Assembly: GCF_000310185.1 (NCBI RefSeq)
Contig: NZ_AMXD01000032.1
Span: 1-32,191, forward strand
Direction of reading: 5' to 3'
DNA from: Thauera aminoaromatica S2
Lineage (GTDB): Bacteria > Pseudomonadota > Gammaproteobacteria > Burkholderiales > Rhodocyclaceae
DNA length: 32,191 bases
The notes beneath the pieces were generated by a model. That model had not been told where the DNA came from, made no database searches, and saw only the letters and a list, made by a program, of their open reading frames with translations. Below, in pieces: positions 24,963 through 32,191 of this stretch (its first letter is position 1; the number at the start of each line of letters is the position of its first letter). The position numbers and the translations under genes are program-made.

Positions 24963-24976
24963 TTGATTCAAATCAT
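24963..24976 (+). promoter_or_regulatory. FNR/Dnr/Nnr-type box before norC
   Basis: TTGATTCAAATCAT matches the TTGAT-N4-ATCAA consensus at 9 of 10 positions. Its centre (24969.5) lies 41.5 bp before the start site predicted from TGACAAT (24998-25004), which is the exact geometry of a class II CRP/FNR-activated promoter. NO- or low-oxygen-responsive control of norCB is the natural reading. Confidence 0.8.
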
Positions 24977-25104: not shown

Positions 25105-26944
<1,840 letters not shown>

Positions 26945-26997: not shown

Positions 26998-27026
26998 GGG
27001 GCGGCGCGAGCCGCCCCTCTTTTTTT
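26998..27026 (+). terminator. Intrinsic terminator of norCB
   Basis: GGGGCGGC (26998-27005), a GCGA tetraloop and GCCGCCCC (27010-27017) are followed by TCTTTTTTT. The stem is perfect and the tail strong. It should separate norCB from the downstream epd-like gene and norEFQ. Confidence 0.9.
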
Positions 27027-27155: not shown

Positions 27156-28256
27156 GTGCCCAACGCCTCCCTTCCGCCCTCCCCGCCGTCCCACGACGCA
27201 CCTCCCGTCCTGCACCCGAGCGGCGTCGAGCGCCCCTTCCGCATCGCGATCAACGGCTACGGCCGCATCGGTCGTTGCTACCTGCGTGCCCTGCACGAAG
27301 CCGGCCTCGCCGAGCGCTACCGCATCGTCGCGATCAACGAGCCTGCGGACCTCGCCAGCATCGCCTACCTCACCCGCTTCGACTCGACCCATGGCAGGTT
27401 TCCGGGGGTGGTGGACCGCAGCGAGCGCGAGCTGATCGTGGACGGTCATGCGATCCACGTGAGCCACGCGAGCACCCCGGAAGAGGTCGACTGGACCGTG
27501 CTGGGGCTCGATCTCGTCGTCGAGTGCTCCGGACAGTACGGCGGACGCCGCGACTTGCAGCGCTTCATCGCTGCCGGCTGCCCGCGACTCCTGCTGTCGC
27601 ACCCCGGCAACGGCGCCGAGGATGTGGATGTCACAGTGGTGTTCGGCATCAACGAGGACGAGCTGCGCGGCCCCGGGCGCCTGGTGTCTAACGCGTCGTG
27701 CACCACCAACGCCGTGGTCCCGGTGCTCGACTGCCTGCACCGCGAGATCGGCATCGAGCAGGCCCTGCTCACCACACTGCATTCGGCGATGAACGACCAG
27801 CCGCTGATCGACGGCTACCACCACGCCGACCTGCGCCGCACGCGCTCGGCGATGCAGTCGATCATCCCGGTGTCGACCGGTCTGGCGCGCGGCGTCGAAC
27901 GCCTGCTGCCGGCGCTCGCCGGACGCGTCCAGGCGAAGGCGATCCGCGTGCCCACCCACAACGTCTCGGCGATCGACATGGTGCTGAGCTTCGGCCGCGA
28001 GGTCTCGGCCGAGGCCGTCAACCGCCTGCTGCGCGAGACCGCCGCCGGGCCGCAGCGTGGCCTGCTCGCGTGCTCCGACGAGGCGCACGCCTCGATCGAC
28101 TTCAACCACGACCCGCACTCGGCGATCATCGACTGCAGCCAGACGCGCGCAGTCGGAGCGAAGATGCTCAACCTGGTGGTGTGGTTCGACAACGAATGGG
28201 GCTTCGCCAGCCGCATGGTCGACGTCACCCGGCGCTGGCTGGCGGCGGCGGGCTGA
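27156..28256 (+). CDS. epd: Erythrose-4-phosphate dehydrogenase-like (GAPDH family)
   Basis: An NAD-dependent aldehyde dehydrogenase of the GAPDH superfamily, closest by motif to E. coli Epd (erythrose-4-phosphate to 4-phosphoerythronate, for pyridoxal phosphate synthesis). Visible: Rossmann INGYGRIGRCYLRAL, catalytic Cys in SNASCTTN, then Epd-like TTLHSAMNDQPLIDGYHHADLRRTRSA, SIIPVSTGLA, FNHDPHSAIID and WFDNEWGFASRM. GAPDH activity is the alternative. The core begins at ERPFRIAIN. GTG 27156 is the nearest start and gives 366 residues; ATG 27045 would add 37 low-complexity residues and sits right at the norB terminator. A TAGAAT at 27058-27063 is a possible -10. It lies between norB and norE, an unusual place. 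Confidence 0.85.
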   Translation: MPNASLPPSPPSHDAPPVLHPSGVERPFRIAINGYGRIGRCYLRALHEAGLAERYRIVAINEPADLASIAYLTRFDSTHGRFPGVVDRSERELIVDGHAIHVSHASTPEEVDWTVLGLDLVVECSGQYGGRRDLQRFIAAGCPRLLLSHPGNGAEDVDVTVVFGINEDELRGPGRLVSNASCTTNAVVPVLDCLHREIGIEQALLTTLHSAMNDQPLIDGYHHADLRRTRSAMQSIIPVSTGLARGVERLLPALAGRVQAKAIRVPTHNVSAIDMVLSFGREVSAEAVNRLLRETAAGPQRGLLACSDEAHASIDFNHDPHSAIIDCSQTRAVGAKMLNLVVWFDNEWGFASRMVDVTRRWLAAAG

Positions 28257-28322: not shown

Positions 28323-28937
28323 ATGAATACCGTCACCACTCCGCCGAGTTCCCTGCCGGCCGGCGGACCGGCACAGGCGCACGGCCCCCGCCTTGCGGGC
28401 GACCTCGCGATCTGGTTCTTCATCCTCGCCGAGCTGCTCGCCTTCGGGGTCTTCTTCGCCGCCTACGCCTTCGCGCGCGCCAAAAACATCGAACTCTTCG
28501 CCGCCGAGCAGGCCGCACTCAACCGCAACGCGGGCGCGCTCAACACCGTGCTGCTGCTCACTGCGAGCTACTTCGTGGTGCGCGCCGTGCAGGCCGCCGA
28601 GGCCCAGGCCTCGCGACAGTGCGCCAACTGGCTGGGCGGCGCGATCCTCACCGGCCTCGGCTTCATCGTCGTCAAGCTGAGCGAGTACGCCGCAGCGTTC
28701 GAGCACAACATCAGCCTCTCGAGCAGCACCTTCCACATGTTCTACCTGTCGCTGACCTTCTTCCACTTCATGCATGTGATCCTGGGTCTGGTAATCCTGA
28801 TCGCGATGTGGAACGGCGCGCGCCAGGGCCGCTACCGCCCGGGCGAGATGAACGGACTGGAGACCGGCGCCGCCTACTGGCACATGGTCGACCTGGTCTG
28901 GCTGATCCTCTTCCCGCTCGTCTACGTCATCCACTGA
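28323..28937 (+). CDS. norE: NorE, cytochrome c oxidase subunit III-like NOR accessory protein
   Basis: A 204-residue, five-helix membrane protein of the heme-copper oxidase subunit III family. In nor clusters this is NorE, which supports full NO reductase activity but is not part of the purified NorBC complex. Motifs are GDLAIWFFILAELLAFGVFF, LNTVLLLTASYFVVRAV, YLSLTFFHFMHVILGLVIL and YWHMVDLVWLILFPLVYV. The last is the classic subunit III ending. The ATG has no Shine-Dalgarno and lies 7 bp after TAGACT, consistent with leaderless initiation. norF follows by 10 bp. Confidence 0.92.
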   Translation: MNTVTTPPSSLPAGGPAQAHGPRLAGDLAIWFFILAELLAFGVFFAAYAFARAKNIELFAAEQAALNRNAGALNTVLLLTASYFVVRAVQAAEAQASRQCANWLGGAILTGLGFIVVKLSEYAAAFEHNISLSSSTFHMFYLSLTFFHFMHVILGLVILIAMWNGARQGRYRPGEMNGLETGAAYWHMVDLVWLILFPLVYVIH

Positions 28938-28947
28938 GGAGCCCGCC

Positions 28948-29229
28948 ATGAGCGCACGCATGCACGGAACGCCCCGCGGCTCCACGATCCTGTTCGCCAC
29001 CCTGATCCTCGCCACCGTCGCCACCTGGGGCATGGGCTCGCTCGGCGTGACCGGCACCTGGGGCGTCGCCATCCTCGCCGCGATCTCGTTCTGGAAGGGC
29101 GCGGTGGTCATCCTCGATTTCATGGCGCTGCGCCATGCACCGCTGCTCTGGCGCGCGATCACGATGGGCTGGATCATCGTCGTCTGGGCGCTGATCGCCA
29201 TCGCCTACATCAAGGGACTCGCCCAATGA
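28948..29229 (+). CDS. norF: NorF, small NOR accessory membrane protein
   Basis: A 93-residue protein with three hydrophobic helices (about 13-30, 35-58, 68-90), including TWGVAILAAISFWKGAVVILDFMALRHAP. It belongs to the cytochrome c oxidase subunit IV-like/NorF group that accompanies NorE. Its job is thought to be in assembly or stability of NO reductase; evidence comes from the family, not this sequence. GAGGAG lies 6 nt before ATG 28948. Its stop overlaps the norQ ATG (ATGA at 29226), indicating translational coupling. Confidence 0.88.
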   Translation: MSARMHGTPRGSTILFATLILATVATWGMGSLGVTGTWGVAILAAISFWKGAVVILDFMALRHAPLLWRAITMGWIIVVWALIAIAYIKGLAQ

Positions 29230-30026
29230 AGCCCGATACGCCCAACCTCGACATTCCCTTCTACCAACCCGCCGGCGACGAGGTGGACATCTTCCAGCAC
29301 GCCTGGAAGAACCGCCTGCCCCTGCTGATCAAGGGCCCCACCGGCTGCGGCAAGACGCGCTTCGTCTCGCACATGGCCGCCCGCCTCGGCCTGCCCCTGT
29401 ACACCGTGGCCTGCCACGACGACCTCACCGCCTCCGACCTGGTCGGCCGCCACCTGATCGGCGACGGCAAGACGATGTGGTGCGACGGCCCGCTCACCCG
29501 CGCGGTACGCGAAGGCGGCATCTGCTACCTCGACGAGGTGGTCGAGGCACGCAAGGACACCACCGTGGTGCTGCACCCGCTCGCCGACGACCGTCGCGTG
29601 CTGCCGATCGACCGCACCGGCGAGCTCCTCGAGGCGCCACCCTCCTTCATGCTGGTGGTGTCCTACAACCCCGGCTACCAGAACCTGCTCAAGGGCATGA
29701 AGCCTTCGACCCGCCAGCGCTTCGTCAGCCTGCGCTTCGACTTCCCGCGCCCCGAGCAGGAAGAGGCGGTGCTGATCGGCGAGACCGCCTGCGCACCGGA
29801 CCTGGCCAAGCGCCTGGTTGCCATCGCCAACGCGCTGCGCGCGCTCAAGGACCGCGACCTGGAAGAGGCCGCGAGCACCCGCCTGCTCGTGTATACCGCC
29901 CTGCTCGTCAAGGACGGCATGGACCCGGTCGCCGCCAGCCGGGTCGGCATCGTCGAGAGCCTGACCGACGACGCCGACGTCGCCGAGGGACTGATGGAGG
30001 TGGTCGCCGCCACCTTCGGCCGCTGA
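29226..30026 (+). CDS. norQ: NorQ, MoxR-class AAA+ ATPase
   Basis: A 266-residue AAA+ ATPase of the CbbQ/NirQ/NorQ subgroup. It works with the VWA-domain protein NorD to insert the non-heme iron (FeB) into NorB. Walker A is GPTGCGKT (37-44), and Walker B is YLDE (D103, E104) in GGICYLDEVVEARKDT. The sensor 1 Asn is in VVSYNPGYQ, and arginine-finger-type STRQRFVSLRFDFP follows. A C-terminal CbbQ_C-like helical domain fills about 190-266. It couples to norF by ATGA overlap. Two extra genes separate it from its partner norD. Confidence 0.96.
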   Translation: MKPDTPNLDIPFYQPAGDEVDIFQHAWKNRLPLLIKGPTGCGKTRFVSHMAARLGLPLYTVACHDDLTASDLVGRHLIGDGKTMWCDGPLTRAVREGGICYLDEVVEARKDTTVVLHPLADDRRVLPIDRTGELLEAPPSFMLVVSYNPGYQNLLKGMKPSTRQRFVSLRFDFPRPEQEEAVLIGETACAPDLAKRLVAIANALRALKDRDLEEAASTRLLVYTALLVKDGMDPVAASRVGIVESLTDDADVAEGLMEVVAATFGR

Positions 30027-30042
30027 AGGCCGGGACATCGAG

Positions 30043-30450
30043 ATGGAAATCAAGCGCGCCGATCCGCTCCGCCACGTCATGCCCGGCCCGCGCCTGGCGG
30101 TCGTCGCCGAGGCGCTGTTCCTGATCAACCTGATGCTCCTGCCCGGGCTGGCATTCCTCGCGCTGATGGTGCTGTGGTACCTGCATCGCGGGCACCCCGA
30201 TCCGCTGGTGCGCAATCACCTGCGCCAGACCGGGTGGACCTGCATCTGGGGCGGGCTGCTGCTGGTCGTGATCAGCGTCGCGATCTTCCTGCTCGGCGGC
30301 TTCGACAATCCGTGGACCTGGGTGATCGGGGTGCTCTATTTCACCTTCGTCCACTCGAGCCTGATCCTGCTCGGCGTGATGGGCCTGTCGCGCGCGATCA
30401 ACGGCCGCAGCTGGCGCTTCCCGGTGTTCGGACCGCGCGAGCCCTCCTGA
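30043..30450 (+). CDS. Four-helix membrane protein in the nor operon
   Basis: A 135-residue protein with a short basic N-terminus (MEIKRADPLRHVMPGP) and about three to four hydrophobic helices: VVAEALFLINLMLLPGLAFL, a second starting LALMVLWYLH, WGGLLLVVISVAIFLLGG, and WVIGVLYFTFVHSSLILLGV. The motif HPDPLVRNHLRQT between helices is reminiscent of DUF4870/Tic20-like small membrane proteins. I do not recognise a named NOR subunit. It is 16 bp after norQ and 17 bp before the polyferredoxin gene on the same strand, so it belongs to the nor operon. A role in NOR assembly or as a membrane partner of the polyferredoxin is inference. Confidence 0.85.
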   Translation: MEIKRADPLRHVMPGPRLAVVAEALFLINLMLLPGLAFLALMVLWYLHRGHPDPLVRNHLRQTGWTCIWGGLLLVVISVAIFLLGGFDNPWTWVIGVLYFTFVHSSLILLGVMGLSRAINGRSWRFPVFGPREPS

Positions 30451-30467
30451 GCCGGCCGGTGACCACG

Positions 30468-31487
30468 ATGAACACCGGAGCCCCTGCGCGCAAACCGCAG
30501 CGCGTCATCCCGATCGCGACCGCCCCTGCGGGCGATGCGGCCGCCGCCGCGGCGATGCAGCGCCGCCGGCGTGCGTTCCAGGCCGGCTTCTTCGCGCTCT
30601 TCGTGCTCGCGCCGGTATTCGATCTCTTCCGCTACGACCTCGACGCCGACCACGCCTGGCTGCTCGGCATGGAATGGCGGCTCGGCCTCGACCCCTTCCT
30701 CGCCGGCCAGGCGAGCGCACTCGAGGCGGCCGGGAGCATCATCCTGAATCTCTTCGTGCCCCTGCTCGCGCTCGCCGCGCTGGTCATCGGCGCGGCGTGG
30801 AAGTGGGGACGGCTGTACTGCGGCTGGCTGTGCCCGCACTTCTCGGTGGTGGAGTCGATCAACCGGCTGATGGCGCGCGCTTCGGGCAAGGCCTCGGTAT
30901 GGGACCGCCACCTGCTGCCGGCGTGGAAGCCCGACGGCCGCCCCGCGCGGGTGGACGCGCGCTGGTGGGGCGTCGTCGTGCCGGCGGCGGTGGGCTTCGC
31001 CTTCCTGTGGGCGGTGGTGCTGCTCACCTACCTGCTGCCGCCCGCGCAGGTGTACGGCAACCTCTTCGCCGGCGAGCTCACGCGCAACCAGGCGATCTTC
31101 CTCACCGCGGCCACGGTGGTGCTGAGCCTCGAGTTCCTCTTCGCACGTCACCTGTTCTGCCGCTTCGTGTGCGCCGTCGGGCTGTTCCAGAGCCTGGCCT
31201 GGATGGGCAACCGCGACGCGCTGGTGGTCGGCTTCGAGCGCGAGCGCGCGAGCGATTGCTCGAACTGCCTGCCCGACCGCCAGTCCGCCTGCGACGCCGC
31301 CTGCCCGATGCGGCTGCGCCCGCGCAACATCAAGCGCCACATGTTCACCTGCACCCAGTGCCGCCAATGCGTCGACGCCTGCGCGACCACCCAGCACGCC
31401 AACCCGCAGGGGCCGCTGCTGTCCTGGGTGGCCGGCGAGGCGGCGCGCCAGAACGAGGCCGGGTTCCGCGCACTCAAGGATCGCTGA
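30468..31487 (+). CDS. Membrane polyferredoxin (NapH/CcoG-like) in the nor operon
   Basis: A 339-residue membrane iron-sulfur protein of the NapH/NosR/CcoG type with about five helices. Two CxxxC motifs flank the membrane segments: C118/C122 in YCGWLCP and C231/C235 in FCRFVCAVG. The C-terminal cytoplasmic domain has two ferredoxin-like cysteine sets: C264, C267, C275, C279 (DCSNC ... CDAACP) and C295, C298, C301, C305 (FTCTQCRQCVDAC), enough for two 4Fe-4S clusters. Such proteins move electrons from quinol or the cytoplasm across the membrane; CcoG is a Cu(II) reductase for cbb3 oxidase assembly. Here it lies between norQ and norD, 4 bp before norD, so electron supply or metal reduction for NO reductase is the likely job. 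The ATG follows GACCACG; no strong ribosome site. Confidence 0.92.
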   Translation: MNTGAPARKPQRVIPIATAPAGDAAAAAAMQRRRRAFQAGFFALFVLAPVFDLFRYDLDADHAWLLGMEWRLGLDPFLAGQASALEAAGSIILNLFVPLLALAALVIGAAWKWGRLYCGWLCPHFSVVESINRLMARASGKASVWDRHLLPAWKPDGRPARVDARWWGVVVPAAVGFAFLWAVVLLTYLLPPAQVYGNLFAGELTRNQAIFLTAATVVLSLEFLFARHLFCRFVCAVGLFQSLAWMGNRDALVVGFERERASDCSNCLPDRQSACDAACPMRLRPRNIKRHMFTCTQCRQCVDACATTQHANPQGPLLSWVAGEAARQNEAGFRALKDR

Positions 31488-31491
31488 CGCC

Positions 31492-32191
31492 ATGGAAGAA
31501 ACCGTAGGCCTGCTCTGGCACCGCCTCATCACCCGCGCCGCCGGCGGACACTTCCCCAAGGCGGCGGTCCGCCTGCGCGACATCGAGAAGACCGCGGGCG
31601 TGTTCTTCCGCGCCCTCGGCGGCGACCCCGGCCTGCGCCTGGCGGCCGCCACCACCGACGAGCATGGCGCGCGGCGCAGCCTGCTGCAGCGCATCGCCGG
31701 CGCCGACGAACGCGTCGCGCGCGCGCGCATGGACGTGTCCACGCTGCGCCTGCCGCCCGAGCTCGACGTGCTGCCCGAGCGCGGCCTCAACCGCGACCTC
31801 TACCTCTGGCTCGCCGCCGTGGCCGCCGCGCCCCCCGCGGAGGATGGCGACGGCCACCCCGCGCTCGGCCCCGTGCCCGACGAGCCGATCGACGAGGCCG
31901 CCACCCGCGAGCTGCGCGAGAACCAGGCCGCCACCCTGCGCGCCCTGGCGCGCTGGCCGGGCATCCAGGCACGCTACCGCCGCCTGGTCGACGCGATGAT
32001 CGCCCAGCGCCCCAGGCTCGACAAGCTGCCGCCCGCCGAGGCCGAACGCGAGAAGCTGATCCGCCTCGCCCTGCACGCCCCCGGCAGCGTCGCCGCCCTG
32101 CCCCGCCTGCCCGCCAAGGCGCGCGCCACCCAGCCCGTGCTGCTGTGGCTGAGCGAGTTCCACGCCAGCGCCGCGGGCGGCAGCGGCGGCG
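31492..32191 (+). CDS. norD: NorD, 5' part, cut by the window end
   Basis: The frame opens at ATG 31492, 4 bp after the polyferredoxin stop, and stays open for 233 codons to the window edge. The visible region is the N-terminal part of a NorD-type protein: MEETVGLLWHRLITRAA, LRDIEKTAGVFFRALGGDPGLRL, and GLNRDLYLWLAAVAA near residue 100. The C-terminal VWA/MIDAS domain, which pairs with NorQ for FeB insertion, must lie beyond the window, so the assignment rests on the N-terminal pattern and operon position. Sequence at the break is Gly/Ser-rich (AAGGSGG), a likely interdomain linker. Confidence 0.85.
   Translation, partial: MEETVGLLWHRLITRAAGGHFPKAAVRLRDIEKTAGVFFRALGGDPGLRLAAATTDEHGARRSLLQRIAGADERVARARMDVSTLRLPPELDVLPERGLNRDLYLWLAAVAAAPPAEDGDGHPALGPVPDEPIDEAATRELRENQAATLRALARWPGIQARYRRLVDAMIAQRPRLDKLPPAEAEREKLIRLALHAPGSVAALPRLPAKARATQPVLLWLSEFHASAAGGSGG

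Follow-up and report, generated by a model that had tools for sequence, protein, structure and literature searches.

A nor-linked polyferredoxin encoded between norQ and norD in Thauera aminoaromatica S2 and its possible role in nitric oxide reductase maturation

Introduction

The clusters of the polyferredoxin NapH are cytoplasmic, and NosR, an accessory flavoprotein of the nitrous oxide (N2O) reductase that was first described as a regulator, has a membrane part with CX3C motifs and a polyferredoxin tail. The present analysis deals with a polyferredoxin gene, here called pfd, which lies together with the small membrane protein gene smp between norQ and norD in the nor cluster of Thauera aminoaromatica S2, that is, among the genes of the nitric oxide (NO) reductase cNOR. 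The whole stretch of DNA that was analysed, referred to as the window, comprises positions 1 to 32,191 of the forward strand of contig NZ_AMXD01000032.1 (assembly GCF_000310185.1). The protein Pfd seems to represent a nor-specific branch of the known polyferredoxin superfamily that is apparently undescribed in nor clusters.

CcoG is an assembly factor of the cbb3 oxidase that reduces Cu(II) and, according to a review, not Fe(III) (PMC7558416). The C-terminal part of CcoG forms an Ig-like periplasmic domain, which is absent from smaller homologues such as YccM, the CcoG homologue of Escherichia coli (PMC7558416). In Paracoccus denitrificans, NorQD is needed for the insertion of FeB (PMC9976466, PMC13036017). 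It is thought to open the way for FeB, and the authors consider that the iron might come from free Fe2+ in the cytosol or from iron chaperones/ferritin (PMC9976466, PMC13036017). The cNOR cluster is given as the six genes norC, B, Q, D, E and F (PMC13036017, published in 2026). Furthermore, NorDQEBC of Dechloromonas aromatica has been listed with two gene numbers skipped after norD (PMC2907700), which we infer to be pfd and a neighbour. Among the literature matches listed, which cover few subscription papers, no paper names pfd in nor clusters and none describes a mutant of the gene; this agrees with the remark of a first-pass annotation of the window that no NO reductase subunit of this kind had been described.

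Like CcoG/RdxA/FixG, Pfd is a membrane polyferredoxin encoded in the operon of a haem-copper-type oxidoreductase, and it has two predicted [4Fe-4S] clusters, two CX3C motifs and a likely accessory role. However, Pfd consists of 339 amino acids, aligns to positions 52-287 of the 435 positions of the CcoG model TIGR02745 and, in this alignment, lacks the C-terminal part with the Ig-like domain. Moreover, its target enzyme has FeB, whereas the target of CcoG has CuB. With NapH/MauN, Pfd shares a Fer4_5-type region, two CX3C motifs and a ferredoxin tail. It resembles NosR by a membrane part with CX3C motifs, a polyferredoxin tail and the location in a denitrification cluster, but the NosR model has 680 positions, of which Pfd matches only 484-518. 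The Thauera-type cluster contains the same genes norC, B, E, F, Q and D as the Paracoccus-type NorQ/NorD system for FeB insertion, but its NorD belongs, as judged by profile score, to another, pfd-bearing lineage.

Pfd is a separate family with invariant redox motifs

The part of the cluster that is central to this analysis reads as follows.

29226-30026, + strand: norQ, MoxR-type AAA+ chaperone (AAA_5 and CbbQ_C matches)
30043-30450, + strand: smp, membrane protein of 135 amino acids, optional partner (AlphaFold2 model; no family match)
30468-31487, + strand: pfd, nor-linked polyferredoxin of 339 amino acids with four predicted membrane helices (Fer4_5, conservation, synteny)
31492-32191 (contig end), + strand: norD, 5' part, homologous to the full-length NorD (636 amino acids) of a near relative

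The gaps between norQ and smp, smp and pfd, and pfd and norD are 16, 17 and 4 bp long, and the two open reading frames, their order and these spacings are as the first-pass annotation had read them. The remainder of NorD was found on another contig of the genome (G000:C19). A NorD profile (A3) matches solved NorD chains, for instance 9qhd_G with an E-value of 2.6e-142. In a single comparison with Thauera propionica, dN/dS was 0.14 for smp and 0.27 for pfd, and both look like constrained protein-coding genes.

Pfd matches Fer4_5 (PF12801) with 41.1 bits (cut-off 22), and the Fer4_5 region, the paired CX3C motifs and a two-cluster ferredoxin tail place it in the NapH/CcoG/NosR polyferredoxin superfamily; for the tail, Fer4_10 scores 17 bits, below its cut-off of 25.5. 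The curated cut-offs of the named families are all missed: those of NapH/MauN (TIGR02163, 45.3 vs 213.05 bits; NF007013, 31.9 vs 234), of CcoG/RdxA/FixG (TIGR02745, 42.3 vs 316.7) and of NosR (NF046105, 17.2 vs 1000). NapH served as the only positive control for these cut-offs, and the annotated NapH of Sphaerotilus scores 404.9 bits against the cut-off of 234. Because the NapH, CcoG and NosR cut-offs are all missed and the true NapH passes, Pfd is, on sequence grounds, a separate family within the superfamily. Thus, of the earlier designation as a NapH/CcoG-like polyferredoxin, the superfamily assignment stands, with Fer4_5 and 12 cysteines, and membership in NapH or CcoG does not.

The family was aligned using the window protein and 91 of 105 non-redundant sequences, which were obtained from 183 near-complete, stop-free hits; frame-broken copies lie outside these 92 proteins because the alignment drew on stop-free hits. 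In all 92 proteins, copies away from nor included, the 12 cysteines as well as H124 and H228 are conserved without exception. The motifs CX3CPH, RHxFCX3C[AS] and CX2CX2CX3C each occur in all 92, and CX2C...CX3CPM, in the pattern used, in 91. These invariant residues correspond to the ligands for two [4Fe-4S] clusters and to a further site made up of four cysteines and two histidines. The first CX3CP is followed by histidine in Pfd, by glutamine in 19 of 19 other superfamily homologues and by valine in the NapH control; the two CX3C motifs show CPV and CPA in the Sphaerotilus NapH, and CPH and CA or CS in Pfd. In this material, the CPH signature is diagnostic for the family as far as the aligned sequences go.

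The AlphaFold2 model of Pfd has a mean pLDDT of 68.5, with values of mostly 78-96 in the membrane part and of about 37-53 in the ferredoxin tail. Its helices span residues 22-51, 84-121, 164-189 and 206-225. The mean number of lysine and arginine residues is 3.3 in the N-terminal segment 22-36, 2.3 in the loop 52-83, 5.8 in the loop 122-163, 0.2 in the loop 190-205 and 13.8 in residues 226-339. By the positive-inside rule, both termini are predicted to be cytoplasmic, as is the loop 122-163, which would place both CX3C motifs and the ferredoxin tail on the cytoplasmic side. The clusters are thus predicted on the same side of the membrane as NorQD. With the models of Pfd and Smp, Foldseek gave no match in the PDB at E <=0.001, the ferredoxin part of the Pfd model being of low confidence, and a further fold comparison with the PDB gave no match at Z >=5. 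The best hit of a PDB sequence search with Pfd was a cytochrome bd subunit (E 0.049).

Distribution and synteny of pfd

A strong pfd match (E <1e-80) was obtained in 47 of 101 genomes, which comprise that of the window and relatives at ranks from genus to order. At 28 of the best 30 loci, norQ lies upstream and norD downstream of pfd; of the two exceptions, L010 lies on a contig that stops short of norD, and the copy at L028 is an orphan. In a class-wide sample of 274 genomes, pfd (E<1e-40) was detected in 34 genomes from 26 families and full NorD in 44. Both were present in 32 genomes, NorD alone in 12, pfd alone in two and neither in 228 (Fisher p 2e-29, uncorrected for kinship). Weaker matches (E 1e-11 to 1e-27), which are other members of the superfamily, were left out of the pfd counts, and partial VWA matches out of the NorD counts. 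One genome per species entered the class and phylum counts, and kinship is handled only through the NorD tree described below. In 30 of the 31 genomes other than that of the window with both genes, the two share a strand, and pfd lies upstream of norD at a distance of 7-280 bp between profile matches. In G223, which counts as pfd-only, the start of norD adjoins pfd at a contig edge (L083, L216). A phylum-wide sample of 299 genomes, overlapping the class sample in some genomes, yielded pfd in 15 and NorD in 37 (at least three truncated), and all 15 genomes with pfd carry NorD.

The best 80 of at least 566 relatives were inspected as named loci, with shorter flanks where contigs end. At 63 of them norD follows directly downstream (within 0.6 kb), at L137 it follows at 6 kb, four run into the end of their contig, and 12 lack nor genes within <=8 kb per side. 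The pfd-carrying denitrifiers include Thauera, Azoarcus/Aromatoleum, Dechloromonas, Azonexus and Denitromonas. Hence, pfd behaves as a nor-linked accessory gene, with co-occurrence beyond chance and beyond gene order. The idea of a nor-linked module, put forward in the first-pass annotation, holds for pfd, whose occurrence is strongly non-random with respect to norD and norB in the 274 genomes (32/12/2/228); smp is only optionally present. The same annotation had regarded the genes as inserted between norQ and norD. An insertion special to this genome was rejected, since norQ-(smp)-pfd-norD is the order commonly found in its NorD lineage; it is usual in this cNOR lineage. Overall, the earlier interpretation is partly supported.

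Smp is an optional companion of pfd

An obligate smp-pfd pair, as had been assumed, was rejected. The 188 loci that hold most of norD, some positions being fetched twice, comprise 117 with both genes, 39 with pfd only, five with smp only and 27 with neither. The corresponding numbers for 116 rows of the NorD tree are 54, 30, 5 and 27. Smp is therefore optional relative to pfd. The protein of the window matches no Pfam family at E 0.01 and no NCBIfam family, and it misses the gathering cut-off of DUF4870 (12.9 vs 25 bits). Weak sub-threshold matches in a set of 14 Smp proteins (A2) were to DUF4870 in seven (best E 0.0032) and to DUF6343 in six (best E 0.00076). The AlphaFold2 model (mean pLDDT 88) has two short helices (17-31 and 36-47) and two long ones (54-85 and 90-119). 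Two genomes, G305 and G317, keep smp only. At L222:6624-7702 in G047, a RelE-like toxin fragment and other remains were observed between smp and norD.

Inheritance of pfd with the NorD lineage

A tree of NorD was built with a quick method and drawn by midpoint, so that it does not distinguish gain from loss. Thinning at 82% identity was applied to rows with pfd, and all rows without it were retained; absence is defined at the locus, and G197, counted among the rows without pfd, has the gene elsewhere. In a Paracoccus-like clade of 16 rows pfd is present in none, and the remaining rows comprise 84 with and 16 without it. The pfd label changes 11 times on this tree, at least eight times on starred branches, vs 28 changes for shuffled labels. 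Judged from this tree, pfd belongs to one of two NorD lineages, with repeated losses.

Protein distances among 40 non-redundant loci correlate between Pfd and NorQ (rho 0.81), Pfd and NorD (0.74) and NorQ and NorD (0.84). The value for Pfd and NorD is no higher than that for NorE and NorD (0.74, 34 loci). As a pattern in sequence distances, this indicates co-inheritance of the three genes and is not proof of contact.

With the NorD profile, the solved NorDs 9qhd and 9qh6 score 450-479 bits and the Paracoccus-like NorDs lacking a pfd partner 437-561 bits, whereas full-length NorDs of the other lineage reach 685-1060 bits and truncated ones score lower. Judging by these scores, the solved chains standing outside the tree, the experimental work on NorQD seems to come from the lineage without pfd, which may explain why pfd has not been met experimentally.

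Pfd genes away from norD and at other positions

Seven of the 12 named loci away from nor belong to Zoogloea or near relatives, and smp is located beside pfd in all of these seven except L135. A single pfd gene is present in each of these genomes, and norB and norD were each found in six of the seven, apart from pfd. None of five norCB stretches of this type has adjoining norQ, norD or pfd; at L254, norF-norQ lies about 7.5 kb from norCB on the opposite strand. With norCB, norD and pfd apart, the operon has been scattered yet pfd retained. L253-L256 and L260 show this unusual break-up of a nor operon with its parts retained. Pfd and norD of G197 are located on separate contigs, neither beside the other's kind. 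The nor cluster of Thauera UBA6194 reads norQ-smp-norD, and its single pfd is found elsewhere beside a metallo-beta-lactamase-fold gene that resembles persulfide dioxygenase by reading and not by family search. G661, G662, G664 and G665 possess one nor-linked and one orphan copy each.

Three plasmid records reveal further positions of the gene. The order is norC-norB-norQ-pfd-norD in Sphaerotilus and norC-norB-pfd-norE-norF-norQ-norD in Amphritea. In Thiothrix, norC-norB is followed by two other genes and then by pfd-nnrS; the annotation of the stretch shown contains neither norQ nor norD.

A second pfd paralogue was noticed in several Thauera genomes (L034:9686-10612, L035:9623-10591, L037 and L038). 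In L034 and L035 it adjoins a persulfide dioxygenase-like metallo-beta-lactamase-fold gene near a polyphosphate kinase 2-like gene (both named by reading). Another family of the superfamily, with about 440 amino acids and a CPQ motif, occurs at L187-L201; the four members that were scanned score 110-116 bits with the CcoG model, under its cut-off. At three loci that were read (L194, L195 and L196), a small gene containing a 'PFWGDR' stretch comes next.

Other genes in the norQ-norD gap

At most loci the gap holds only smp and pfd. A bacterioferritin gene lies between pfd and norD in G091 (L051:8688-9155; TIGR00754, 159.5 bits, cut-off 125.55). In the related genomes G223 and G338, a hemerythrin-domain gene is located directly upstream of pfd (L216:1173-1670 and L081:1010-1504), and in G338 it overlaps the start of pfd by 4 bp. 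These few iron-protein neighbours are only suggestive.

A CopD/HemJ-like membrane protein is encoded between pfd and norD at L127, L146 and L151, and the same protein is encoded after pfd at the Zoogloea loci L135 and L144, away from nor; at L170, the orphan pfd is followed by the gene for a different CopD-like protein. In the four proteins scanned, the scores for CopD and UPF0093 stay under the curated cut-offs. The CopD/HemJ-like gene was dropped as a fixed third partner, relatives of the L127 protein being present in only nine of 61 genomes. Unrelated genes occupy the gap at single loci; examples are an MCP-like one in G272 and, in Azonexus, a Crp/Fnr-like one at L120.

Proposed role of Pfd and alternative explanations

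Pfd may be a dedicated accessory protein of one cNOR lineage that acts as a cytoplasm-side reductase in cNOR maturation, an explanation to which we give an even chance. The protein would take electrons from a cytoplasmic donor, and its two [4Fe-4S] clusters would relay them to the CX3CPH/RHxFCX3C site at the membrane interface. There, either a metal (in the simplest case the iron of FeB) or a redox group of the enzyme under assembly would be kept reduced, while NorQD opens NorB from the same cytoplasmic side. Smp could be an optional membrane partner. Pfd would raise the efficiency or robustness of maturation and would not be absolutely required, because several lineages have lost it. The position of pfd and the predicted cytoplasmic side fit the NorQD-dependent maturation context that the first-pass annotation had suggested. 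We infer that electrons are delivered on the cytoplasmic side during cNOR maturation, with the FeB iron as the likeliest beneficiary, since NorQD presumably opens NorB to cytosolic Fe2+, either free or from iron chaperones/ferritin (PMC9976466). Electron supply to the working enzyme is less likely because the clusters are predicted to be cytoplasmic.

A tentative and rather doubtful extension casts Pfd as a loading station for ferrous iron. The CX3CPH/RHxFCX3C site would bind iron at the cytoplasmic face, electrons from the two clusters would hold it as Fe(II), and it would be handed via the NorQD-opened channel to FeB; iron stores, for example the bacterioferritin whose gene lies within one such cluster, might supply it. 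If this were true, Pfd would be the iron counterpart of CcoG for a whole NO reductase lineage.

Several observations weigh against a reductase role in maturation. The Paracoccus-like NorD clade does without pfd in 16 of 16 rows, and 11 of the 12 NorD-only genomes of the class sample, which belong to the pfd-bearing lineage, have no pfd anywhere at the threshold used. The losses include G354, where a pfd fragment is left, and G305, whose congener keeps the gene; in G047 of the phylum sample, smp is kept and a RelE-like fragment occupies the place of pfd. Frame-broken copies are present in G198 (pfd-only, on a contig of 3.6 kb) and in G221 (counted as having both genes). Moreover, there are paralogues with no nor gene nearby, in Thauera beside the metallo-beta-lactamase-fold gene, and iron-protein neighbours occur in three genomes only. 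No solved structure matched Pfd, and the ferredoxin part of its model is of low confidence. In the published work, E. coli makes active cNOR from the P. denitrificans operon norCBQDEF, which is described without pfd, and the iron of the cytosol is said to be Fe2+ already (both PMC9976466); CcoG reportedly does not reduce Fe(III) (PMC7558416). YccM of E. coli could in principle stand in for Pfd in the norCBQDEF experiment.

Pfd might instead be a CcoG-like metal reductase with a broader role, for example in copper or haem supply or in the repair of metal centres under NO, that is merely co-expressed with cNOR. The cupric reductase CcoG has the closest described function (PMC7558416), and CopD/HemJ-like neighbours (L135, L144, L127, L146 and L151), the CopD-like one at L170 and the orphan paralogues of Thauera point in this direction. 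However, the CopD and UPF0093 matches are below their cut-offs, and relatives of the L127 protein are infrequent. CNOR is not known to contain copper, and the linkage observed is with norD, so that we regard this explanation as unlikely. A NapH-like function in respiration, in which Pfd oxidises quinol or a cytoplasmic donor and feeds the cNOR chain, agrees with the resemblance to NapH (TIGR02163, 45.3 bits), with the location in a respiratory cluster and with the Sphaerotilus pfd, which lies close to a true nap cluster. Yet the redox motifs are all predicted to be cytoplasmic and the periplasmic loops are short, whereas cNOR receives its electrons from periplasmic cytochrome c or cupredoxin. 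Furthermore, the nor cluster of the window has no NapG- or NapC-like gene, and the NapH cut-off, which the true NapH passes, is missed widely; this makes a respiratory function quite unlikely.

Co-inheritance with norQ (0.81) and with norD (0.74, no more than NorE-NorD) would conserve gene order even if pfd were a functionless hitch-hiker of the operon with no part in NO reduction, and the repeated losses show that it is dispensable. This is very unlikely in our view, since pfd is retained in cNOR genomes after break-up of the operon, occurs at several positions inside nor clusters and is under purifying selection. It is even harder to credit that Pfd senses NO or the redox state and thereby regulates the expression of nor or the activity of NorQD. 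NosR, a relative, was originally called a regulator, and Crp/Fnr-family genes lie near pfd in all three plasmid records that were read. However, neither Pfam nor NCBIfam detects a DNA-binding or signalling domain in Pfd, and the invariant electron-transfer architecture with 12 cysteines suits a conduit better.

For the maturation role, the tie of a redox protein to norD makes the source and the redox handling of the FeB iron testable by a single gene deletion. A large lineage of denitrifiers carries a conserved redox gene beyond the six-gene cNOR set, and the organisms that bear pfd matter for N2O turnover.

Further features of the nor locus

The remaining features of the locus, upstream of norQ, are as follows.

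24963-24976, + strand: FNR/Dnr-like palindrome TTGATTCAAATCAT, 128 bp 5' of the norC start codon (pattern scan, motif match only)
25105-25530, + strand: norC, cytochrome c subunit (Cytochrom_C match; 281 bits with our own norC hidden Markov model)
25562-26944, + strand: norB, catalytic subunit of cNOR (COX1, 257 bits; 968 bits with our own norB hidden Markov model)
26998-27017, + strand: hairpin with T run 3' of norB, resembling an intrinsic terminator (pattern scan)
27225-28256, + strand: gene of the GAPDH/erythrose-4-phosphate dehydrogenase family in the norB-norE gap (TIGR01532; start codon uncertain)
28323-28937, + strand: norE, COX3-like (PF00510, 55.9 bits)
28948-29229, + strand: norF, COX4_pro-like (PF03626, 44.9 bits)

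The palindrome, whose motif is that of an FNR/Dnr site, is the sole match with one mismatch among 18 with <=2 mismatches in the pattern scan. The hairpin downstream of norB has eight G-C pairs and a long T tail; in the region, the scan found five terminator-like hairpins vs 2.9 expected from shuffles. Given this hairpin, norCB and the remaining nor genes may form two transcription units, with the accessory genes possibly transcribed separately. The gene in the norB-norE gap scores 454.8 bits with TIGR01532, under the cut-off of 530.55. The near relative L036 has it as well, with 96% identity, and in the Thauera loci L094-L096, L098, L099 and L106 norB and norE are separated by a gap of 1.3-1.4 kb (gap size only). 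Two further GAPDH-family genes are located elsewhere in the Thauera genome.

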